Of a DNA stretch of 38,735 nucleotides, positions 4,410-16,417 are shown piece by piece. The notes beneath the pieces are model-generated. The model searched no databases and was not told the origin of the DNA. It was given only the letters and a program-made list of their open reading frames with translations. Source of the DNA: an uncultured Leptolinea sp. (GTDB lineage Bacteria; Chloroflexota; Anaerolineae; Anaerolineales; Anaerolineaceae); NCBI GenBank assembly GCA_903828565.1, contig CAIKMQ010000007.1, positions 1 to 38,735 on the forward strand. The letters are read 5' to 3'. How positions within the stretch are numbered: the first letter of the stretch is position 1; each line of letters begins with the position of its first letter. Position numbers and translations under genes: made by a program.

Positions 4410-4519
4410 CTCTCATCTTCCAGATATTTGTCTGCCGGAATTGGCACCGGTGAAACGGTTTCCCGTCTCCGGTTGTCGAGGCATCGCAGGGCCGGTCCCT
4501 CCGCCTCTCTGGATAAGAG
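4410..4519 (-). ncRNA. SAM-I (S-box) riboswitch
   Basis: Read on the minus strand, the leader of metK matches the S-box core: P1 formed by CTCTTATC (4519-4512) and GATGAGAG (4417-4410), then AGAGAGGCGGAGGGA, GGCCC, GACAACC, and the conserved GGTGCCAATTCC segment before the final helix. These are the hallmark bases of the kink-turn and SAM pocket. It binds S-adenosylmethionine; bound SAM stabilises P1 and releases the terminator strand. This is a direct match to a well-known class. Confidence 0.95.
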
Positions 4520-9844: not shown

Positions 9845-12268
9845 TCAAACCCTGGCATTACGCAGGCGCAGGCTGTTCGTGACCACAAACACACTGCTCA
9901 TGGCCATGGCAGCAGCTGCCAGTATCGGTGACATGATACCCACCGCTGCTGCGGGTATCAGGATGATGTTGTATATGAAAGCCCAGAAAAGGTTCTGACG
10001 GATGGTTTTCAGAGTCTTGCGTGATAGTTGGATTGCCCGGGGAACACCGCGCAGATCTCCACTGATCAACACCACAGGGGCGGATGCAATGGCAACATCC
10101 GTTCCGGTGCCGATGGCGATACCTACATCCGCCTGTGCCAGTGCTGGCGCGTCATTGATACCATCACCCACCATCGCGACAACCTTGCCGCTTTGCTGAA
10201 GTTCTTTCACCCTGGCGCTCTTCTCCCCAGGAAGAACCTCCGCCACCACATGGTCCACACCAGCCTGACGGCCAATAGCTTCTGCCGTCTGGCGGTTATC
10301 CCCGGTCAACATGACCACTTCCAGACCCATCGCCTGCAGCGATCTGACCGCCTCTGCGGAACCTTCTTTAATGGTATCCGCCACAGCAATGATCCCGGCA
10401 AGAGCACCATCCACGGCCACAAGCATGGCAGTTTTTCCACCGGCCTGCAGGCTCTCTATCCGGCTTGTGTATAGCTGGATGGATACGCCGGCTTCCCGCA
10501 TCATTTTGCTGTTGCCGATCGATATCATCCGGCTATCTACTTCTGCTGTCACACCGTACCCGGCTTTCGCCTCAAAGCGTGCCGTTGGTTGCAGGGTAAT
10601 CTCGCGCTCACCGGCAGCTGCAACGATTGCCTCTCCCAGGGGGTGTTCACTGGCCTTTTCAACGGATGCAGCCAGGCGTAACAGGTCGTTCTCTTTCCAG
10701 CCATCGACAGTGGTGATATCCGTCACTGTTGGCTGTCCGCGGGTGATTGTGCCGGTCTTATCCAATACCACGACACGTACATGACCTGCCCGTTCCAGGG
10801 CTTCACTGGATTTCAGCAGAATGCCTGTTTCAGCACCCTTGCCGGTACCCACCATGACTGCAGTCGGTGTTGCCAGGCCCATGGCACAAGGGCAGGCGAT
10901 CACCAGGACGGCCACCATTTTGATCAACGCGCGGGTGAATTCATTTACATCCGAGTTTACCGAAAGCGGCGGCCCAAACAGCATCCACCCCGCGAAGGTC
11001 AACAGCGCAATGCCAATAACAGCCGGTACAAAGACCGCCGATATTTTATCTACCAGTTTCTGAATAGGCGCTTTCGAGCCCTGCGCTTCTTCCACCAGGC
11101 GGATGATCTGCGATAAGGCAGTCTCTCGGCCTACACGCGTGGCTTCAAAGCGGATACTACCTAAGCGGTTCATGGTTGCGCCGATTACGGGGCTGCCGGC
11201 AGACTTTTCAACCGGGAGCGACTCGCCGGTCAGCATGGATTCATCCACCGAGGTGTTGCCGTCCAGTACCACACCATCCACAGGGATCTTTTCTCCCGGC
11301 TTCACAATAACCACATCACCGACTACCACATCTTCCACCGGCAAAGTCATCTCGCGGCCATCCCGGATGACCAGTGCCTGTTTCGCGTGCAATCCCATTA
11401 GTTTCTTGATCGCTTCGCTGGTTTTTCCTTTGGCGCGGGCTTCCAGAAATTTACCCACTTTGATCAATGTGATGATCACAGCCGCGGTCTCAAAATAGAC
11501 ATGTCCGCGGAAGAGCCCAAAAGTTACCGGCAGAGAATACAGGTAAGCCGCCGAAGAACCCAGGGCAACCAGAACATCCATGTTCGCTGACCCATTACGC
11601 AGCGATTTATAAGCGCCATTGTAGTATTGCCAGCCGACATAGAACTGCACCGGTGTGGCCAGTGCCAGCATCACCCAGTTCATCCACGGGGCATGTGAAA
11701 TGCTCATGGGGATGATCCCCAGGTCATTGGCCATAGACAAAAGGAACAATGGGACTGTAAAGAGAAGCCCCACGCGTAAGAGATGCCGCTGCTGATCGAT
11801 CTCGTGCTGCCTGGCACGGGCTTCTGCATCCTCACTATTCGCGCCAAGCTCCAGCGCTTCGAACCCCGCTGCCTTGATTGCGACCCGGATCTCTTTCTGG
11901 CTGATGATCGTCGGGATGTATCTGGCGATTGCTTTCCCGGTGACCAGGTTGACCGTTGCGCTCTCTACGCCCTCCAGGGTAAGCATGGCTTTTTCCACCC
12001 GGCGGACATCGTTATCATCCCCCAGGCTGCTGATCTGAAGTTCCGCTTCCGCTTCGGCCACGTTATATCCCGCATTCTTAACGCGGGTGATCATCGCCGG
12101 CAGACTGGCAAGGGAGGGATCGAATTCCACTGTCGCTCTTTCATTAGAAAGATTGACCACCGCCTGTGTGACACCATTCACTTTCTTTAAACTACGCTCT
12201 ACAGTGGAGACGCAATTTGCGCATGTCATCCCTGTGATGGGTAGTGTGATCAATTTGGTTTCTGCCAT
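9845..12268 (-). CDS. copA: Copper-exporting P1B-type ATPase
   Basis: CopA pumps Cu(+) out of the cytosol using ATP. Domains in order: a heavy-metal-associated domain (residues 1-75) with GMTCANC (C16, C19); a second HMA-like fold (about 78-150) lacking the CxxC; eight transmembrane helices; the actuator TGES loop; the metal-site CPC at 459-461; the phosphorylated DKTGT (D503); the HPLGEAI nucleotide-binding motif; and [18 protein letters not shown]. The YN of FIYNIILIP and the MSS of AMAMSSVFV mark the Cu(+) subclass P1B-1. GGAG lies 4 nt before the ATG. The promoter (TTGAGG, 17 bp, TATAGT) faces away from the TauE/cupredoxin gene, and a dyad lies between the two promoters. Confidence 0.97.
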
Positions 12269-12309
12269 ATTGCTCCTTTTTACCGGGTCAGACCCGTTTC
12301 AATGACACA

Positions 12310-12338
12310 ACTATACTCTTCGATGTTGACATCCTCAA
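12310..12338 (-). promoter_or_regulatory. copA promoter
   Basis: On the minus strand, TTGAGG (12338-12333) and TATAGT (12315-12310) are spaced by 17 bp. Transcription would begin near 12303, giving a leader of about 35 nt. The -35 overlaps the edge of the dyad at 12336-12357. Confidence 0.6.
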
Positions 12339-12357
12339 TAGGTATTAATACTCATTG
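12336..12357. promoter_or_regulatory. Candidate operator shared by the divergent copper genes
   Basis: This 22-bp interrupted palindrome has a perfect 10-bp core GTATTAATAC and outer arms CAAT and ATTG separated by 2-bp mismatches. It overlaps the -35 of the copA promoter on one side and the first bases of the -35 of the plus-strand promoter on the other. It does not resemble the CueR, CsoR or CopY sites known to me. The binding protein is unknown and no regulator gene is nearby. Confidence 0.5.
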
Positions 12358-12383
12358 CCCGGATTCATGCGTATCGGTAGAAT
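12355..12383 (+). promoter_or_regulatory. Promoter of the TauE/cupredoxin and copZ genes
   Basis: TTGCCC (12355-12360), a 17-bp spacer and TAGAAT (12378-12383) predict a start near 12390. That excludes the earlier in-frame ATG at 12388 and supports the ATG at 12415. Confidence 0.55.
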
Positions 12384-12414
12384 TTGAATGCTTATACATA
12401 GAAATGGAGTGAAT

Positions 12415-13644
12415 ATGACAGAGTATATCGTTGCCTTTGTTACCGGCCTGACTACCGGCGGATTAAGCTGCCTGGCGGTTCAGGGTGGGCTGCTGGCCAG
12501 TTCCCTGGCCAGCCAGGTTGAACAGGATGTTCGTGAAAGCGGAAACCCGCACAAGGCGCGGGTAGCTCAGCCGATCCTTTGGTTCCTTTTAGCCAAGTTG
12601 ATCGCCTATACAATCCTGGGTTTCATGCTGGGCTGGCTCGGATCCGTCCTGCAGCTGAACCCGATCACCCGCGCGGTTCTGCAGATAGCCATAGGTATAT
12701 TTATGGTCGGGCAAGCTTTGCGCATGTTGAATGTGCATCCCATATTCCGGTATTTTAATATTGAGCCGCCTAAATTCATCACCCGCTTTATCCGCCGAAA
12801 GGCAAAGAACGGGTCCGGCGTGGTCACTCCGCTCTTCATGGGAGCACTGACCGTCCTCATTCCCTGCGGTATCACCCAGGTGATGATGGCATCCGCCATC
12901 ACGACAGGGAACGCCGTTACCGGTGCGCTGTTGATGTTCTCTTTCATCCTCGGTACCAGCCCGATCTTCTTCATTGTTGCGTATTTCACCACGCGCCTGG
13001 GTGAGAAGCTGGAGAAATACTTCATGCGGTTCGTTGCAGTCGTTGTACTTGTTCTTGGATTGATCACTGTCAATACCGGCTTGAACCTGATGGGCTCCCC
13101 CCTCGCTTTTGGGAACCTGGTCAGTGCTGTTACCGGGCCGCGTGTAGTTCAGGCCCAATCTCCGGCAGATACATCACCTGCCGCTGCCCTCAGTGACACC
13201 TCTCCGGTTTGCACCCTGCAGGCGAATGGAAACAACGGTTCCGGATGCGGATCGGCCGCTGCCGGCGGTTGCCCGATGATGTCGGGTGGTAACCGCAGCG
13301 CTGTTGGTTCTGCCATCACCGCGCCATCGACCGTCACTCAAGCCCCAACCGCCATCCCCGTAGTGGAAGAACAGGCACAGGAGCTTGTGATCCAGGTTGA
13401 AAACAACGGCTACAGCCCTGAAGTTACCCATGCCCTTGCTGGGGTGCCAACCCGGCTGGTGCTGGTTTCTAATAATGTCCGTTCCTGCTCACTGGCTTTT
13501 GTCATCCCCTCCCTGAATGTTCAGGTACTGCTCGAGCCGACAGGCAGCCACACCATTGAAATCCCCGCCCAGCAGGCAGGAACACGCATACCCTTCTCTT
13601 GCTCCATGGGTATGTATACGGGCGTGATTATTTTCGATAAATAA
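12415..13644 (+). CDS. TauE/SafE (UreH/DsbD-like) membrane protein fused to a cupredoxin domain
   Basis: The 409-residue protein joins two modules. The N-terminal ~235 residues form a six-helix membrane domain of the DsbD/UreH-like TauE-SafE type, with Cys in GGLSCLAV and in LIPCGITQVMMASA. A periplasmic linker of about 75 residues is Cys/Met-rich (GSGCGSAAAGGCPMMSGG). The C-terminal ~85 residues are a cupredoxin-like domain (VIQVENNGYSPEV, GVPTRLVLVSNNVRSC, IPFSCSMGMYTGVI) with a Cys/Met pair of the kind that binds copper. I chose the ATG at 12415 because GGAG lies 5 nt before it and the promoter lies just upstream. Divergent from copA and followed by copZ, it probably handles copper at the outer face of the membrane. 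Confidence 0.85.
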   Translation: MTEYIVAFVTGLTTGGLSCLAVQGGLLASSLASQVEQDVRESGNPHKARVAQPILWFLLAKLIAYTILGFMLGWLGSVLQLNPITRAVLQIAIGIFMVGQALRMLNVHPIFRYFNIEPPKFITRFIRRKAKNGSGVVTPLFMGALTVLIPCGITQVMMASAITTGNAVTGALLMFSFILGTSPIFFIVAYFTTRLGEKLEKYFMRFVAVVVLVLGLITVNTGLNLMGSPLAFGNLVSAVTGPRVVQAQSPADTSPAAALSDTSPVCTLQANGNNGSGCGSAAAGGCPMMSGGNRSAVGSAITAPSTVTQAPTAIPVVEEQAQELVIQVENNGYSPEVTHALAGVPTRLVLVSNNVRSCSLAFVIPSLNVQVLLEPTGSHTIEIPAQQAGTRIPFSCSMGMYTGVIIFDK

Positions 13645-13671
13645 TTTCAACCCACTCAAGGAGATGTAATA

Positions 13672-13878
13672 ATGAAGATCACATATACCATCCCTGATAT
13701 GCACTGCGGCAATTGTGCCATGCGCTTGGAAGCCCTCGAAGATGAATTGCAGGGTGTCACAGCGGTCGATGCCAGTTATCACAAACAGCAAATGGTAGTG
13801 GATTTCAACCCAGAGATCATCACTGAGAGCGAGATTAAAGCCGCTATCGCCCGCAAGGGATATTCGGTCGGTGAGTAA
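13672..13878 (+). CDS. copZ: Copper chaperone, HMA domain protein
   Basis: The 68-residue protein is a single heavy-metal-associated domain that carries Cu(+) in the cytosol and delivers it to CopA. The metal site is MHCGNC near residues 11-16, after the first beta strand, as in CopZ and Atx1. The rest keeps the ferredoxin-like pattern: AMRLEALEDELQGV helix, VVDFNPE strand, ITESEIKAAIARKGYSV helix and strand. AAGGAGATG lies before the ATG. It is 27 bp behind the TauE/cupredoxin gene, in the same transcript, and a strong terminator follows. Confidence 0.93.
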   Translation: MKITYTIPDMHCGNCAMRLEALEDELQGVTAVDASYHKQQMVVDFNPEIITESEIKAAIARKGYSVGE

Positions 13879-13894
13879 AACCGGCTGATCACCA

Positions 13895-13932
13895 CAGCCC
13901 CGCTGCCTCCTCCGGCGGGGCTGTTCTTCTTT
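13895..13932 (+). terminator. Terminator after copZ
   Basis: A 9-bp GC stem (13895-13903 with 13915-13923) with an 11-nt loop is followed by TTCTTCTTT. It separates the copper operon from the selenoprotein gene. Confidence 0.85.
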
Positions 13933-13948
13933 AAGGCTGCATATCGGT

Positions 13949-13954
13949 TATAAT
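13949..13954 (+). promoter_or_regulatory. Candidate -10 of the selenoprotein-trpS-dtd unit
   Basis: A perfect TATAAT lies 27 bp before the selenoprotein ATG and just past the copZ terminator. No convincing -35 is present. It would give a leader of about 20 nt. Confidence 0.5.
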
Positions 13955-13981: not shown

Positions 13982-14224
13982 ATGAAACATACCATTTCGA
14001 TCACATACTGTGCGGTTTGACACTACACACCCCGGGCGGTCAGCCTGGCAGGTGAGATACTGGCATCCATCGAAGGTAAGGTGCAATCCATCACACTCGT
14101 GCCGTCCGATGGCGGGCGGTTTGAAGTGGAAGTGGATAAACAGCTGGTTTACTCCAAACTTAAATCAGGTGTTCACCCTGCTCCCGGGGAAGTATTAACC
14201 ATCATTCAGGATTATTTACGGTAG
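13982..14224 (+). CDS. selW: SelW-like (Rdx family) selenoprotein with in-frame UGA
   Basis: Reading TGA at 14018-14020 as selenocysteine gives an 80-residue protein that starts MKHTISITYCAVU and ends at TAG 14222-14224. The CxxU redox motif (C10, U13) lies right after the first beta strand. It is followed by HYTPRAVSLAGEIL, VQSITLVPSDGGRFEVEV and LVYSKLKSGVHPAPGEVLTI, the pattern of SelT/SelW/SelH thioredoxin-like proteins, whose length also fits. The proposed role is thiol redox or antioxidant function. A stem-loop directly after the UGA fits a bacterial SECIS. The gene ends 6 bp before trpS. No clear Shine-Dalgarno sequence precedes the ATG (only GGAAAA). TGA serves as a normal stop elsewhere here, so general UGA reassignment is unlikely. 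The alternative is a pseudogene with a nonsense mutation, but the frame is intact on both sides and the UGA falls exactly at the catalytic position. Confidence 0.88.
14028..14054 (+). promoter_or_regulatory. Candidate bacterial SECIS element
   Basis: The upper stem CCGGGC (14032-14037) pairs with GCCTGG (14043-14048), one pair being G-U, and closes a GGTCA loop. After a 2-nt bulge (CA, 14049-14050) the lower stem CACC (14028-14031) pairs with GGTG (14051-14054). The loop begins 17 nt after the UGA and starts with G, which matches the published general bSECIS model as I recall it. SelB would bind here. The fold was worked out by eye. Confidence 0.75.
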
Positions 14225-14230
14225 GAACTC

Positions 14231-15229
14231 ATGGCTATAAAAAATCGTGTCTTTTCGGGAGCGCGTCCCACTGGACGGCAGCATCTTGGTAATTATCTGG
14301 GAGCCATTCAGAACTATGTGGCGCTGCAGCAGGGGAACGACTGCGTTTATTGCATTGTGGACATCCATGCCCTGACGACCGTGGAGGATACGGTCAACCT
14401 GCGCCAGAACATCCTGGAAATGGCATTGGACTGGCTGGCAGCCGGTATTGACCCGAAGGAACAAATCATGTTCGTTCAATCCATGGTGCCGCAGGTGACA
14501 GAACTGCACACGATTCTTTCCATGGTGACACCGCTTGGCAAGCTGACGGATCTGCCAACCTTCAAAGAGAAGGCGCGTGAGAATCCCAATAATGTGAACT
14601 ACGGGCTGGTGGGATACCCGGTGCTGATGGCAGCGGATATTGTCCTCTACAAGACCAACCTGGTGCCTGTCGGTGTCGATCAAGCCCCACATATTGAATT
14701 CACCCGCGAAATTGTGCGGTCTTTCAATTACCGCTATCACTGCACCGCTTTGCTTGAACCGCAAATGAAGGTTACCCAGGTACCCAAAGTGCTTGGTATC
14801 GACGGTGTACAAAAAATGGGTAAAAGCCTGGATAATCATATTGAGATTGCCGGCACCCCGGAAGAAACACAAAAACGTGTGATGATGATGGTGACCGACC
14901 CGGCGCGCATCAAGCGGACCGATCCCGGAAACCCGGATGTGTGCAACGTGTTCAGCATGCATAAGATCTTTTCCAGCCCGGAGGAAGTTGCAAGCATCCA
15001 TACCGAATGCCGCAGTGCCGGTATCGGCTGTGTGGATTGTAAAAAACTGTATGCAAAGAATCTCAATCAGCGGCTGGAGCCTTTCCGCGCTGAACGGGCA
15101 CGGTTCGCCGCGAATCCGCAGGCAGTTTGGGAGATTCTCGAAGACGGGGCCAAACGCGCCCGCGTGATCGCCAGCCAGACCATGGCGGAAGTACGCGAAG
15201 CGATTGGCCTGCCAAAACTGGATTATTAA
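14231..15229 (+). CDS. trpS: Tryptophanyl-tRNA synthetase
   Basis: This class I synthetase charges tRNA-Trp. The 332-residue length is normal. The HIGH-type signature appears as PTGRQHLGNY (13-22), and the KMSKS-type loop as KMGKSLDN beginning at K195. The segment VDIHALTT and the specificity region LMAADIVLYKTNLVPVGVDQ are typical of bacterial TrpRS. It starts 6 bp after the selenoprotein stop, and its stop overlaps the dtd start by one base (TAATG). The three genes are therefore probably one transcript. Confidence 0.97.
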   Translation: MAIKNRVFSGARPTGRQHLGNYLGAIQNYVALQQGNDCVYCIVDIHALTTVEDTVNLRQNILEMALDWLAAGIDPKEQIMFVQSMVPQVTELHTILSMVTPLGKLTDLPTFKEKARENPNNVNYGLVGYPVLMAADIVLYKTNLVPVGVDQAPHIEFTREIVRSFNYRYHCTALLEPQMKVTQVPKVLGIDGVQKMGKSLDNHIEIAGTPEETQKRVMMMVTDPARIKRTDPGNPDVCNVFSMHKIFSSPEEVASIHTECRSAGIGCVDCKKLYAKNLNQRLEPFRAERARFAANPQAVWEILEDGAKRARVIASQTMAEVREAIGLPKLDY

Positions 15230-15666
15230 TGCGCGCCGTCCTTCAGCGGGTCAGCAATGCCAGCGTTGAAGTTGAAGATCAGGTCGTTGCCAGCATTGGC
15301 AGCGGCCTGTTGATTCTCGCAGGTATGGGACATGGCGATTCCAGCGAAACTGCCGCGGCCATGGCTCATAAGATCGCCCGACTGAGGATCTTTGCGGATA
15401 CCGCCGGGAAAATGAACCTCAGCGTGCTGGATATCGCTGGCGAGATCCTGGTTGTTTCTCAATTTACCCTATTCGCGGATGCCCGCAGGGGAAACCGCCC
15501 GTCGTTTACAGACGCGATGGAGCCTGGGGCCGCCAGCCTATTGGTGGAGCATTTTGCAGAGGCCCTCAGCCGGGAAGGGCTGAAAGTATCGCAGGGAGTT
15601 TTTGGCGCGGATATGAAAGTTCGATTGCTTAATGATGGTCCGGTGACCATCCAGCTGGAAAACTAA
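15229..15666 (+). CDS. dtd: D-aminoacyl-tRNA deacylase
   Basis: Dtd removes D-amino acids wrongly attached to tRNA. The protein starts MRAVLQRVSNASVEVEDQ, the family's standard N terminus, so I place the start at the ATG 15229 that overlaps the trpS stop (145 residues), not at an earlier in-frame ATG inside trpS. The chirality-proofreading motifs are present: LVVSQFTLFAD (SQxT) near 76-86, and NDGPVT near the C terminus in place of the usual NxGPVT. Coupling to trpS makes sense because D-Trp is a known mischarging substrate. The last 38 bp overlap the end of the convergent minus-strand gene. Confidence 0.96.
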   Translation: MRAVLQRVSNASVEVEDQVVASIGSGLLILAGMGHGDSSETAAAMAHKIARLRIFADTAGKMNLSVLDIAGEILVVSQFTLFADARRGNRPSFTDAMEPGAASLLVEHFAEALSREGLKVSQGVFGADMKVRLLNDGPVTIQLEN

Positions 15667-16417
15667 TTCCCCCGCTCCACAAGACAGTATCCAATTTAAC
15701 TGCCAACGCTCCGGCTTGTAAAAACAGGTCGGCTTCTCTTACGCTGTAGACACCACCCGCGGCGATGACCGGCAGCCCGTGACAGCGCGCCGCCCGCAGC
15801 CAGTACATGGATTGCGGGAAAATGCCCGGCCCGTAGATGCGCCCGCCGGCCAGGTTCTGCGCATCTACGGCAGCAGCATTAGGCACCACTCCTCGCAGCG
15901 GCGCGCAGCATACAGCCGCCACATCACAGGATACCAGCCCCGGCAAGATCCGGTCTGACTGATGAATATCCAACTCAATAACTACAGGCCATTCGCGAAC
16001 AGAAAGCCGCGCACATTCGAGAACATCCTCTATCGCGGCTCCGGGGTGGAAACTGAGTTCCAGGCCGGAAAGTCCATCGACACCGTCCAGCATCTGCAGG
16101 CATTCGCACAACCCGGCTACATGCTCCACCATCAGGTGCAGCAGCACTGGCAGCGGTGACTGCCGCCAGGATCGGGCATTTTGACGGATGACAGCAGATA
16201 AACCGGGGTTGGGGAAGCCGGTATGCACCAGCGATCCACCCGCAAAGTGGGCTGCAGTACGGCTTTCTGCCGGGGAGCGTGGTAGCCGGCTGACCGGGTT
16301 CGTAATAAAACAACCAAGTTGTGCTGTTTGAGGAAACCGCCGCAGGTCAGGGGTATACCCCAGCATTCCAGCCGCATTCATTACCGGGGTGTGGAATGCC
16401 AGATCCTGTTTTGGCAT
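15629..16417 (-). CDS. Divergent dihydroorotate dehydrogenase-like (PyrD-type) protein
   Basis: The 262 residues look like a TIM-barrel flavoprotein of the dihydroorotate dehydrogenase group. FHTPVMNAAGMLGYTPDL matches the first strand; ITNPVSRLPRSP and HTGFPNPGLSAVI match the equivalents of the usual NxIGLPNPG segment; and IAAGGVYSVREADLFLQAGA followed by AVKLDTVLW matches the FMN phosphate-binding end. It is shorter than normal PyrD (about 300 residues) and lacks the expected Lys-containing KLTPN strand; VIELDIHQSD stands there instead. Activity as a true DHODH is doubtful. It starts 9 bp after cysS with AAGG as ribosome binding site, so it is probably co-transcribed. Confidence 0.7.
   Translation of the reverse strand: MPKQDLAFHTPVMNAAGMLGYTPDLRRFPQTAQLGCFITNPVSRLPRSPAESRTAAHFAGGSLVHTGFPNPGLSAVIRQNARSWRQSPLPVLLHLMVEHVAGLCECLQMLDGVDGLSGLELSFHPGAAIEDVLECARLSVREWPVVIELDIHQSDRILPGLVSCDVAAVCCAPLRGVVPNAAAVDAQNLAGGRIYGPGIFPQSMYWLRAARCHGLPVIAAGGVYSVREADLFLQAGALAVKLDTVLWSGGISFPAGWSPDHH

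Follow-up and report, generated by a model that had tools for sequence, protein, structure and literature searches.

A putative SelW-family selenoprotein gene with an in-frame UGA upstream of trpS and dtd

Within the window, the 38,735-nucleotide stretch of DNA analysed here, a short frame directly upstream of the tryptophanyl-tRNA synthetase gene trpS is interrupted by a single TGA. The locus raises the question of whether this codon is read as selenocysteine (Sec), marks a broken gene or is decoded in some other way, and whether the position of the frame before trpS carries a functional meaning. We consider it very probable (roughly 95%) that this frame is a genuine gene for a SelW (Rdx) selenoprotein, with Sec at UGA13, and that it opens a selW-trpS-dtd unit. 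This reading draws on comparison and covers family membership, the predicted fold, the UGA/Cys codon, the hairpin behind it, the Sec machinery, the gene order and the iron-sulfur motif of the tryptophanyl-tRNA synthetase (TrpRS); whatever else the protein may do, apart from incorporating Sec and taking part in thiol redox chemistry, is inferred. The features of the locus are as follows.

13894..13924, + strand: terminator-like hairpin of 12 pairs, after the gene at 13672-13878 and before selW
13949..13954, + strand: TATAAT, a possible -10 box, with no partner hexamer by the rule of the promoter scan
13982..14224, + strand: selW, putative SelW/Rdx selenoprotein of 80 residues with C10-A-V-U13 (profile, fold, homolog comparison)
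14018..14020, + strand: in-frame TGA at codon 13, read as Sec (homologs, Sec machinery)
14028..14054, + strand: bSECIS-type hairpin of 10 pairs with a 2-nt bulge and the apical loop GGUCA at 14038-14042 (folding, conservation)
14231..15229, + strand: trpS, tryptophanyl-tRNA synthetase (TIGR00233, 299.4 bits, cut-off 176.75)
14942..15040, + strand: codons of C-x21-C-x6-C-x2-C in trpS, the [4Fe-4S] pattern (Cys 238, 260, 267 and 270)
15229..15666, + strand: dtd, D-aminoacyl-tRNA deacylase (TIGR00256, 169.1 bits, cut-off 101.5)

Family and predicted fold of the selW product

The frame begins with an ATG at 13982 and ends with a TAG whose last base is 14224; with the TGA read as Sec, the N-terminus of its product is MKHTISITYCAVUHYTPRAV. 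The first-pass annotation had described an 80-residue, SelW-like frame with one TGA at the SelW catalytic position, and both parts of this description held, as the TGA is codon 13 in a CAVU motif and the product scored above the cut-offs of the Rdx/SelW profiles and has a predicted SelW fold. In particular, the protein matched Pfam PF10262 (Rdx) with 73.6 bits (1.5e-20, cut-off 22.6) and TIGR02174 with 57.5 bits (cut-off 34.2), and it was the only Rdx match in its own genome at an E-value of 0.001. It shares with the bacterial SelW-like proteins (Rdx, PF10262; TIGR02174; NF041051) the profile, the CxxU, the size, the fold and a UGA with a bSECIS-type hairpin. In contrast to that family, it fell below the cut-off of NF041051, the SelTWH equivalog profile (81.4 bits, cut-off 88), and within this taxonomic order its gene stands beside trpS-dtd.

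The AlphaFold model of the protein, with Cys in place of Sec, had a mean pLDDT of 95.2. In a fold search of the PDB, ranks 1-21 were all SelW-family entries, with TM-scores (query) of 0.86-0.93 and rmsd values of 1.1-1.3; the top score of 0.93 belonged to 2FA8, a SelW-related crystal structure. Across the crystal structures 2FA8, 3DEX, 2OBK, 2OKA, 2P0G and 2OJL, the model reached TM-scores of 0.86-0.93 at sequence identities of 24-36%. The protein is thus predicted to adopt the thioredoxin-like SelW fold. In the model, Cys10 ends the strand of residues 3-10 and residue 13 precedes the helix of residues 16-33, which places residues 10-13 between strand 1 and helix 1. Both columns of the CxxU were invariant in an alignment of 36 sequences in which U was written as C. 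The Cys10/Sec13 pair could form a selenenylsulfide, and the protein would then act as a thiol-disulfide oxidoreductase.

A similar gene occurs in Campylobacter jejuni, which we take to belong to another phylum than the organism of the window. Its SelW (CJnc60), like the window selW, has 80 residues and an internal UGA, and full-length translation past this UGA has been reported from Ribo-seq and proteomics (PMC11955535). The selenoprotein itself belongs to a long-known and abundant bacterial family (PMC1088965, PMC1794560, PMC2398784). SelW-like proteins with a CxxU outnumbered every other selenoprotein family in the Sargasso Sea set, in a paper of 2005 that considered the function of SelW in bacteria unclear (PMC1088965), and an ocean survey counted 427 SelW-like proteins (PMC2398784). 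That SelW genes can be overlooked by annotation has likewise been reported (PMC4607533).

The codon at residue 13, the hairpin and the Sec machinery

Among 88 homologous loci, 81 have TGA at the codon aligned to residue 13, and the remaining 7 have TGC (Cys). The set was assembled from the top matches to a query in the Sec form and is therefore biased towards Sec forms; it also includes five duplicate pairs. The homologs keep the site as UGA or Cys in 88/88 loci; a lack of conservation among close homologs was what the first-pass annotation had named as speaking against recoding. Within the family, 52 of 147 genomes carried a selW homolog; in 45 of these it contains a single in-frame TGA, and in the other 7 it has no stop. 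A class-wide sample contained a homolog in 178/396 genomes, with at least two homologs lacking the TGA (G466 and G292) among the matches listed. A previous survey states that Cys homologs of SelW-like proteins in Sec-using bacteria are very few or none (PMC1794560), and the seven Cys-form selW genes of the relatives are exceptions to that statement. SelA and tRNA-Sec were also found in the seven Cys-form genomes of the family.

If a Cys-type SelW gene had been turned into a pseudogene by a nonsense mutation in codon 13, it would also present a lone in-frame stop. However, the TGA occupies the same codon in 81/88 loci, the frames behind it stay open for 62-83 codons, and the TGA-form proteins of the family are 35-64% identical to the window protein and occur in genomes with SelA or tRNA-Sec. 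Given this conservation of the codon-13 TGA across genera, we rejected the pseudogene, whose probability we regard as negligible.

The own genome contained a tRNA-Sec with 70.8 bits, which ARAGORN also called tRNA-SeC with the anticodon TCA, together with SelA, SelD and a SelB above its cut-off. The proposed search for selA, selB, selC and selD thus recovered selA, selB, selD and the tRNA-Sec gene, rather than the absence of selB and selC that had been named as counting against recoding, and the prediction that the organism uses selenocysteine agrees with this set of tRNA-Sec, SelA, SelB and SelD, which gives it the means to do so. The selD gene of the same genome (L015:1501-2433, - strand) has one in-frame TGA of its own, in the context NCAG-U-ASKL near the N-terminus. 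We take this to be the catalytic Cys/Sec place, and SelD is probably a selenoprotein too.

Across the 45 TGA-form genomes, tRNA-Sec was found in 40 (at 1e-9) and SelA in 44 (at 1e-40), with at least one of the two in 45/45. The five genomes without tRNA-Sec at 1e-9 all contained SelA (5/5); upon recheck, their best tRNA-Sec matches scored 45.4-48.7 bits, three of the five lying just over the cut-off of 47, and the two matches examined with ARAGORN were tRNA-Ser. Two genomes, G036 and G142, combine a TGA-form SelW and SelA with no clear tRNA-Sec and are 99% complete. The TGA form was present in 0/26 genomes lacking both selA and tRNA-Sec (Fisher 2.4e-5, with kinship ignored), at least 14 of these 26 being one genus.

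UGA might instead be read as Trp, by a near-cognate tRNA or under a changed code, or as Cys, by a tRNA with a UCA anticodon. Bacterial UGA is leaky for tRNA-Trp, and Cys replaces UGA in 7/88 loci. Against this, a Trp codon occupied the site in 0/88 loci, and a Sec-type tRNA with a UCA anticodon is encoded in the genome alongside SelA, SelB and SelD. UGA is also a stop, in line with the description of TGA as an ordinary stop elsewhere in the window: it ends copA, while the other ten of 11 window frames checked end in TAA or TAG, and it is the terminal stop of 38/81 TGA-form selW genes, so that UGA would be read in two ways within such genes. For these reasons, we rejected a Trp or Cys reading of UGA13 and consider it very unlikely, if somewhat less so than the pseudogene.

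A stem-loop had been placed 17 nt after the TGA. This distance holds for the apical loop GGUCA, which begins with G as described, but not for the stem, which begins 7 nt after the TGA (14028), so that the 17 nt evidently referred to the loop. The stem pairs 14028-14037 with 14043-14054. Folding of 14018-14060 (43 nt), as the first-pass annotation had suggested, gave a single hairpin of -16.0 kcal/mol (z -2.16; 5/200 shuffles were as good). The energy was unremarkable in three longer cuts of 55, 58 and 79 nt (z -0.08 to -0.46), and the support for the hairpin therefore stems from the comparison with relatives. Spacing limits for the hairpin test follow general knowledge of bSECIS elements. As expected of a bSECIS, a small apical loop containing G sits in a hairpin just behind the UGA, the loop-G rule being that given in PMC1088965.

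The relatives fit two registers: register A, which includes the window, has CCGGGC/GYCUGG with the loop NGUNA, and register B has GCYGUC/GGCRGC with the loop RGUYU four bases further on. Counted by register, a fitting hairpin was present in 64/76 genes, against a mean of 8.7 and a maximum of 16 among recodings. This count is partly circular because the registers were picked after inspecting the data, and a register-free test was therefore made, which required a perfect stem of six pairs with up to two G-U pairs, a loop of 4-7 bases and a G as the first or second base of that loop. Such a stem was found in 63 of 76 distinct genes, whereas 200 sets of synonymous recodings averaged 13.6 and never exceeded 21, and the hairpin behind the UGA thus exceeds what the protein sequence demands. 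Seven control positions gave 0, 0, 5, 6, 7, 9 and 16 real stems; the control at +30, with 16 stems, was above its own recodings (mean 8.1, maximum 15), and the other six were not above theirs.

Folding energies agreed with this test more weakly. The mean z at the hairpin was -1.33, with p up to 0.05 in 23/76 genes and a z of -1.96 for the window itself, and mean z at ten control positions ranged from -0.62, reached by one control, to 0.12. Additionally, the third-base pair at offsets 20 and 32 from the U of UGA had the top mutual information (0.57, the next being 0.51) among 1596 third-position pairs in 75 genes. These offsets are the wobble bases of two Ala codons that are paired in register B, and their combinations in 76 genes were C-G in 38, T-A in 20, C-A in 9 and others in 9. 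From these comparisons, the hairpin looks selected.

Because the frame belongs to the SelW family, the Sec machinery is present, TGA or TGC is conserved and the hairpin rises above synonymous recodings, the window selW, which belongs to a bacterial family already described (PMC1088965, PMC2398784), is almost certainly recoded locally, with its UGA read as Sec. On reaching UGA13, the ribosome would meet SelB that carries Sec-tRNA and is bound to the hairpin immediately downstream, and insertion of Sec at UGA13 would yield the thioredoxin-like protein.

Transcription signals and gene order around selW

The first-pass annotation had given selW its own -10 box. A TATAAT is indeed present at 13949-13954, but a scan for promoters with both hexamers gave no site before selW on the + strand, and we rejected such a promoter. 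As a terminator-like hairpin lies between the upstream gene and selW, selW may begin a transcript. The gap between selW and trpS is 6 bp, as reported (trpS ATG at 14231), and the trpS stop and dtd start overlap by 1 nt (TAATG) in the window; dtd lies downstream in many relatives too.

Upstream of selW, 9845-13878 of the window encodes a P-ATPase of the copper type, a putative membrane protein and a small protein that resembles copper-binding domains but scores below cut-off. The membrane-protein frame (12388-13644) had no NCBIfam match, and the small metal-binding-like protein (13672-13878) scored 44.9 bits against a cut-off of 62; in the 88-locus set, these two genes precede selW elsewhere only in L018, from the same genus. 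Downstream, the protein of 15629-16417 had sub-threshold dihydroorotate dehydrogenase matches alone.

We found trpS directly downstream of selW on the same strand in 50/52 SelW genomes of the family (44/45 plus 6/7 genomes, the loci L036 and L074 being one genome). The same arrangement was present in 21/21 loci fetched from three further families within the taxonomic order, in 12/15 loci on contigs of named genomes and in 0/6 loci of other orders. The proposed tie to a synthetase/tRNA-proofreading transcript was thus borne out as conserved gene order, in the family (50/52) and in the other families (21/21). The family exceptions were G033 (L072) and G017 (L122), and in L122 a dtd-like frame follows selW directly. 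The seven Cys-form selW genes also precede trpS. A long downstream frame was present in 81/88 loci, with its start within 30 nt or overlapping in 66/81; the commonest spacing was a 4-nt overlap (26/81), and in three of the 81 (L086, L088 and L091) the frame was other than trpS. By eye, in three frames over 320 nt before trpS, no degenerate selW was seen in 14 SelW-less genomes. In L122, L061 and L048, a dtd-like gene comes immediately or shortly after selW and trpS is missing, and the selW-dtd link may therefore reach further than the selW-trpS link. L086 and L088, from another order, have selW, then a frame of 278 codons (MEIAF...), then a dtd-like gene.

In L039, a T-box leader (1784-1996, - strand; 148.3 bits) immediately precedes selW-trpS. 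Since this was the only such leader among the 60 selW-trpS loci scanned at the gathering threshold (54 TGA, 6 TGC; L080 and L104 have fewer than 200 bases before the UGA), we rejected the idea that a T-box generally precedes selW; at the same threshold, none was found in the window. Two SelW-less genomes of the same genus as L039 have a T-box before trpS (L110:1225-1452, + strand; L111:2544-2773, - strand). A UGG occupies the same aligned place in all three T-boxes, and from T-box anatomy we take it to be the specifier. Among other RNA elements, the window contains a SAM riboswitch at 4410-4519 (- strand, 79.9 bits), and Rfam cspA thermoregulator matches lie a little more than 2 kb downstream of selW in L050, L051, L053, L058 and L062.

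The partner TrpRS and the possible meaning of the pairing

The closest solved relative of the window TrpRS was 2G36 from Thermotoga maritima (5.3e-81), which we take to be the structure entry of the report PMC2954223. That report describes the Thermotoga maritima enzyme as a TrpRS with a [4Fe-4S] cluster and gives the motif as C-x(21-24)-C-x6-C-x2-C; words beginning with 'seleno' were absent from its text. The window TrpRS resembles 2G36 in having Cx21Cx6Cx2C in the anticodon-binding domain, with Cys 238, 260, 267 and 270 all within the aligned stretch, and its cluster is predicted from this motif. Read in the fetched loci only, the motif was present in 76/78 SelW-linked TrpRS copies and in 6/6 more, and the partner TrpRS is thus assigned to the [4Fe-4S] type by motif. 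In L073 and L082, Asp replaces the last Cys. By title, no published pairing of selW with a [4Fe-4S]-type TrpRS was found in the open-licence literature.

A TrpRS at least 66% identical to that of the window, our definition of the Fe-S type, was present in 86 family genomes (3/86 from partial matches of 141-215 residues), 51 with and 35 without SelW. Among the matches listed, 44 family genomes had a divergent TrpRS alone, and SelW was found in 0/44; four of these (G042, G048, G078 and G083) have further TrpRS matches beyond those listed. The co-occurrence of SelW with the Fe-S-type TrpRS gave a Fisher value of 3e-13, with kinship ignored. G017 is a SelW genome with no TrpRS match. The motif was absent from 6/6 divergent TrpRS copies read and present in 8/8 Fe-S-type copies read from SelW-less genomes, from which it follows that SelW is not required for such a TrpRS.

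These counts bear on whether the pairing is merely an inherited gene order with no functional meaning, which would leave the selenoprotein unaffected and to which we give about even odds. Consistent with simple inheritance, 35/86 genomes with the Fe-S-type TrpRS lack SelW, selW lies elsewhere in G033 and G017, none of the six other-order loci has it beside trpS, and the Cys forms keep the same place before trpS, which counts against a link to TrpRS. On the other hand, four families of this taxonomic order keep the arrangement with tight spacing (one locus each in two of them), the 4-nt overlap recurs in 26/81 loci, the arrangement is shared by Sec and Cys forms, and SelW was found in 0/44 genomes with only a divergent TrpRS among the matches listed, with the lineages clumped.

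As selW opens a compact, presumably co-transcribed selW-trpS-dtd unit, SelW is probably made together with the [4Fe-4S]-type TrpRS. Tentatively, we infer a redox link in which SelW might keep the thiols or the cluster of its partner TrpRS, or those of nearby tRNA enzymes, functional; we regard this as possible but hardly the favoured outcome. It is more doubtful still that UGA13 also serves as a regulatory gate by which trpS output follows selenium status while SelW guards the TrpRS cluster. Under such a gate, ribosomes would halt at UGA13 whenever selenium or Sec-tRNA is scarce and would miss the trpS start, which coincides with the last codons of selW or lies close to them (the 4-nt overlap noted above); in L039, the T-box with UGG before the whole unit would add control by tRNA-Trp.

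With a SelW selenoprotein as the preferred reading of the frame, the part worth following is the pairing with an iron-sulfur-type TrpRS, which is more interesting than the selenoprotein itself. Kept in most of the SelW-bearing family genomes examined, this pairing offers a concrete candidate partner for SelW.
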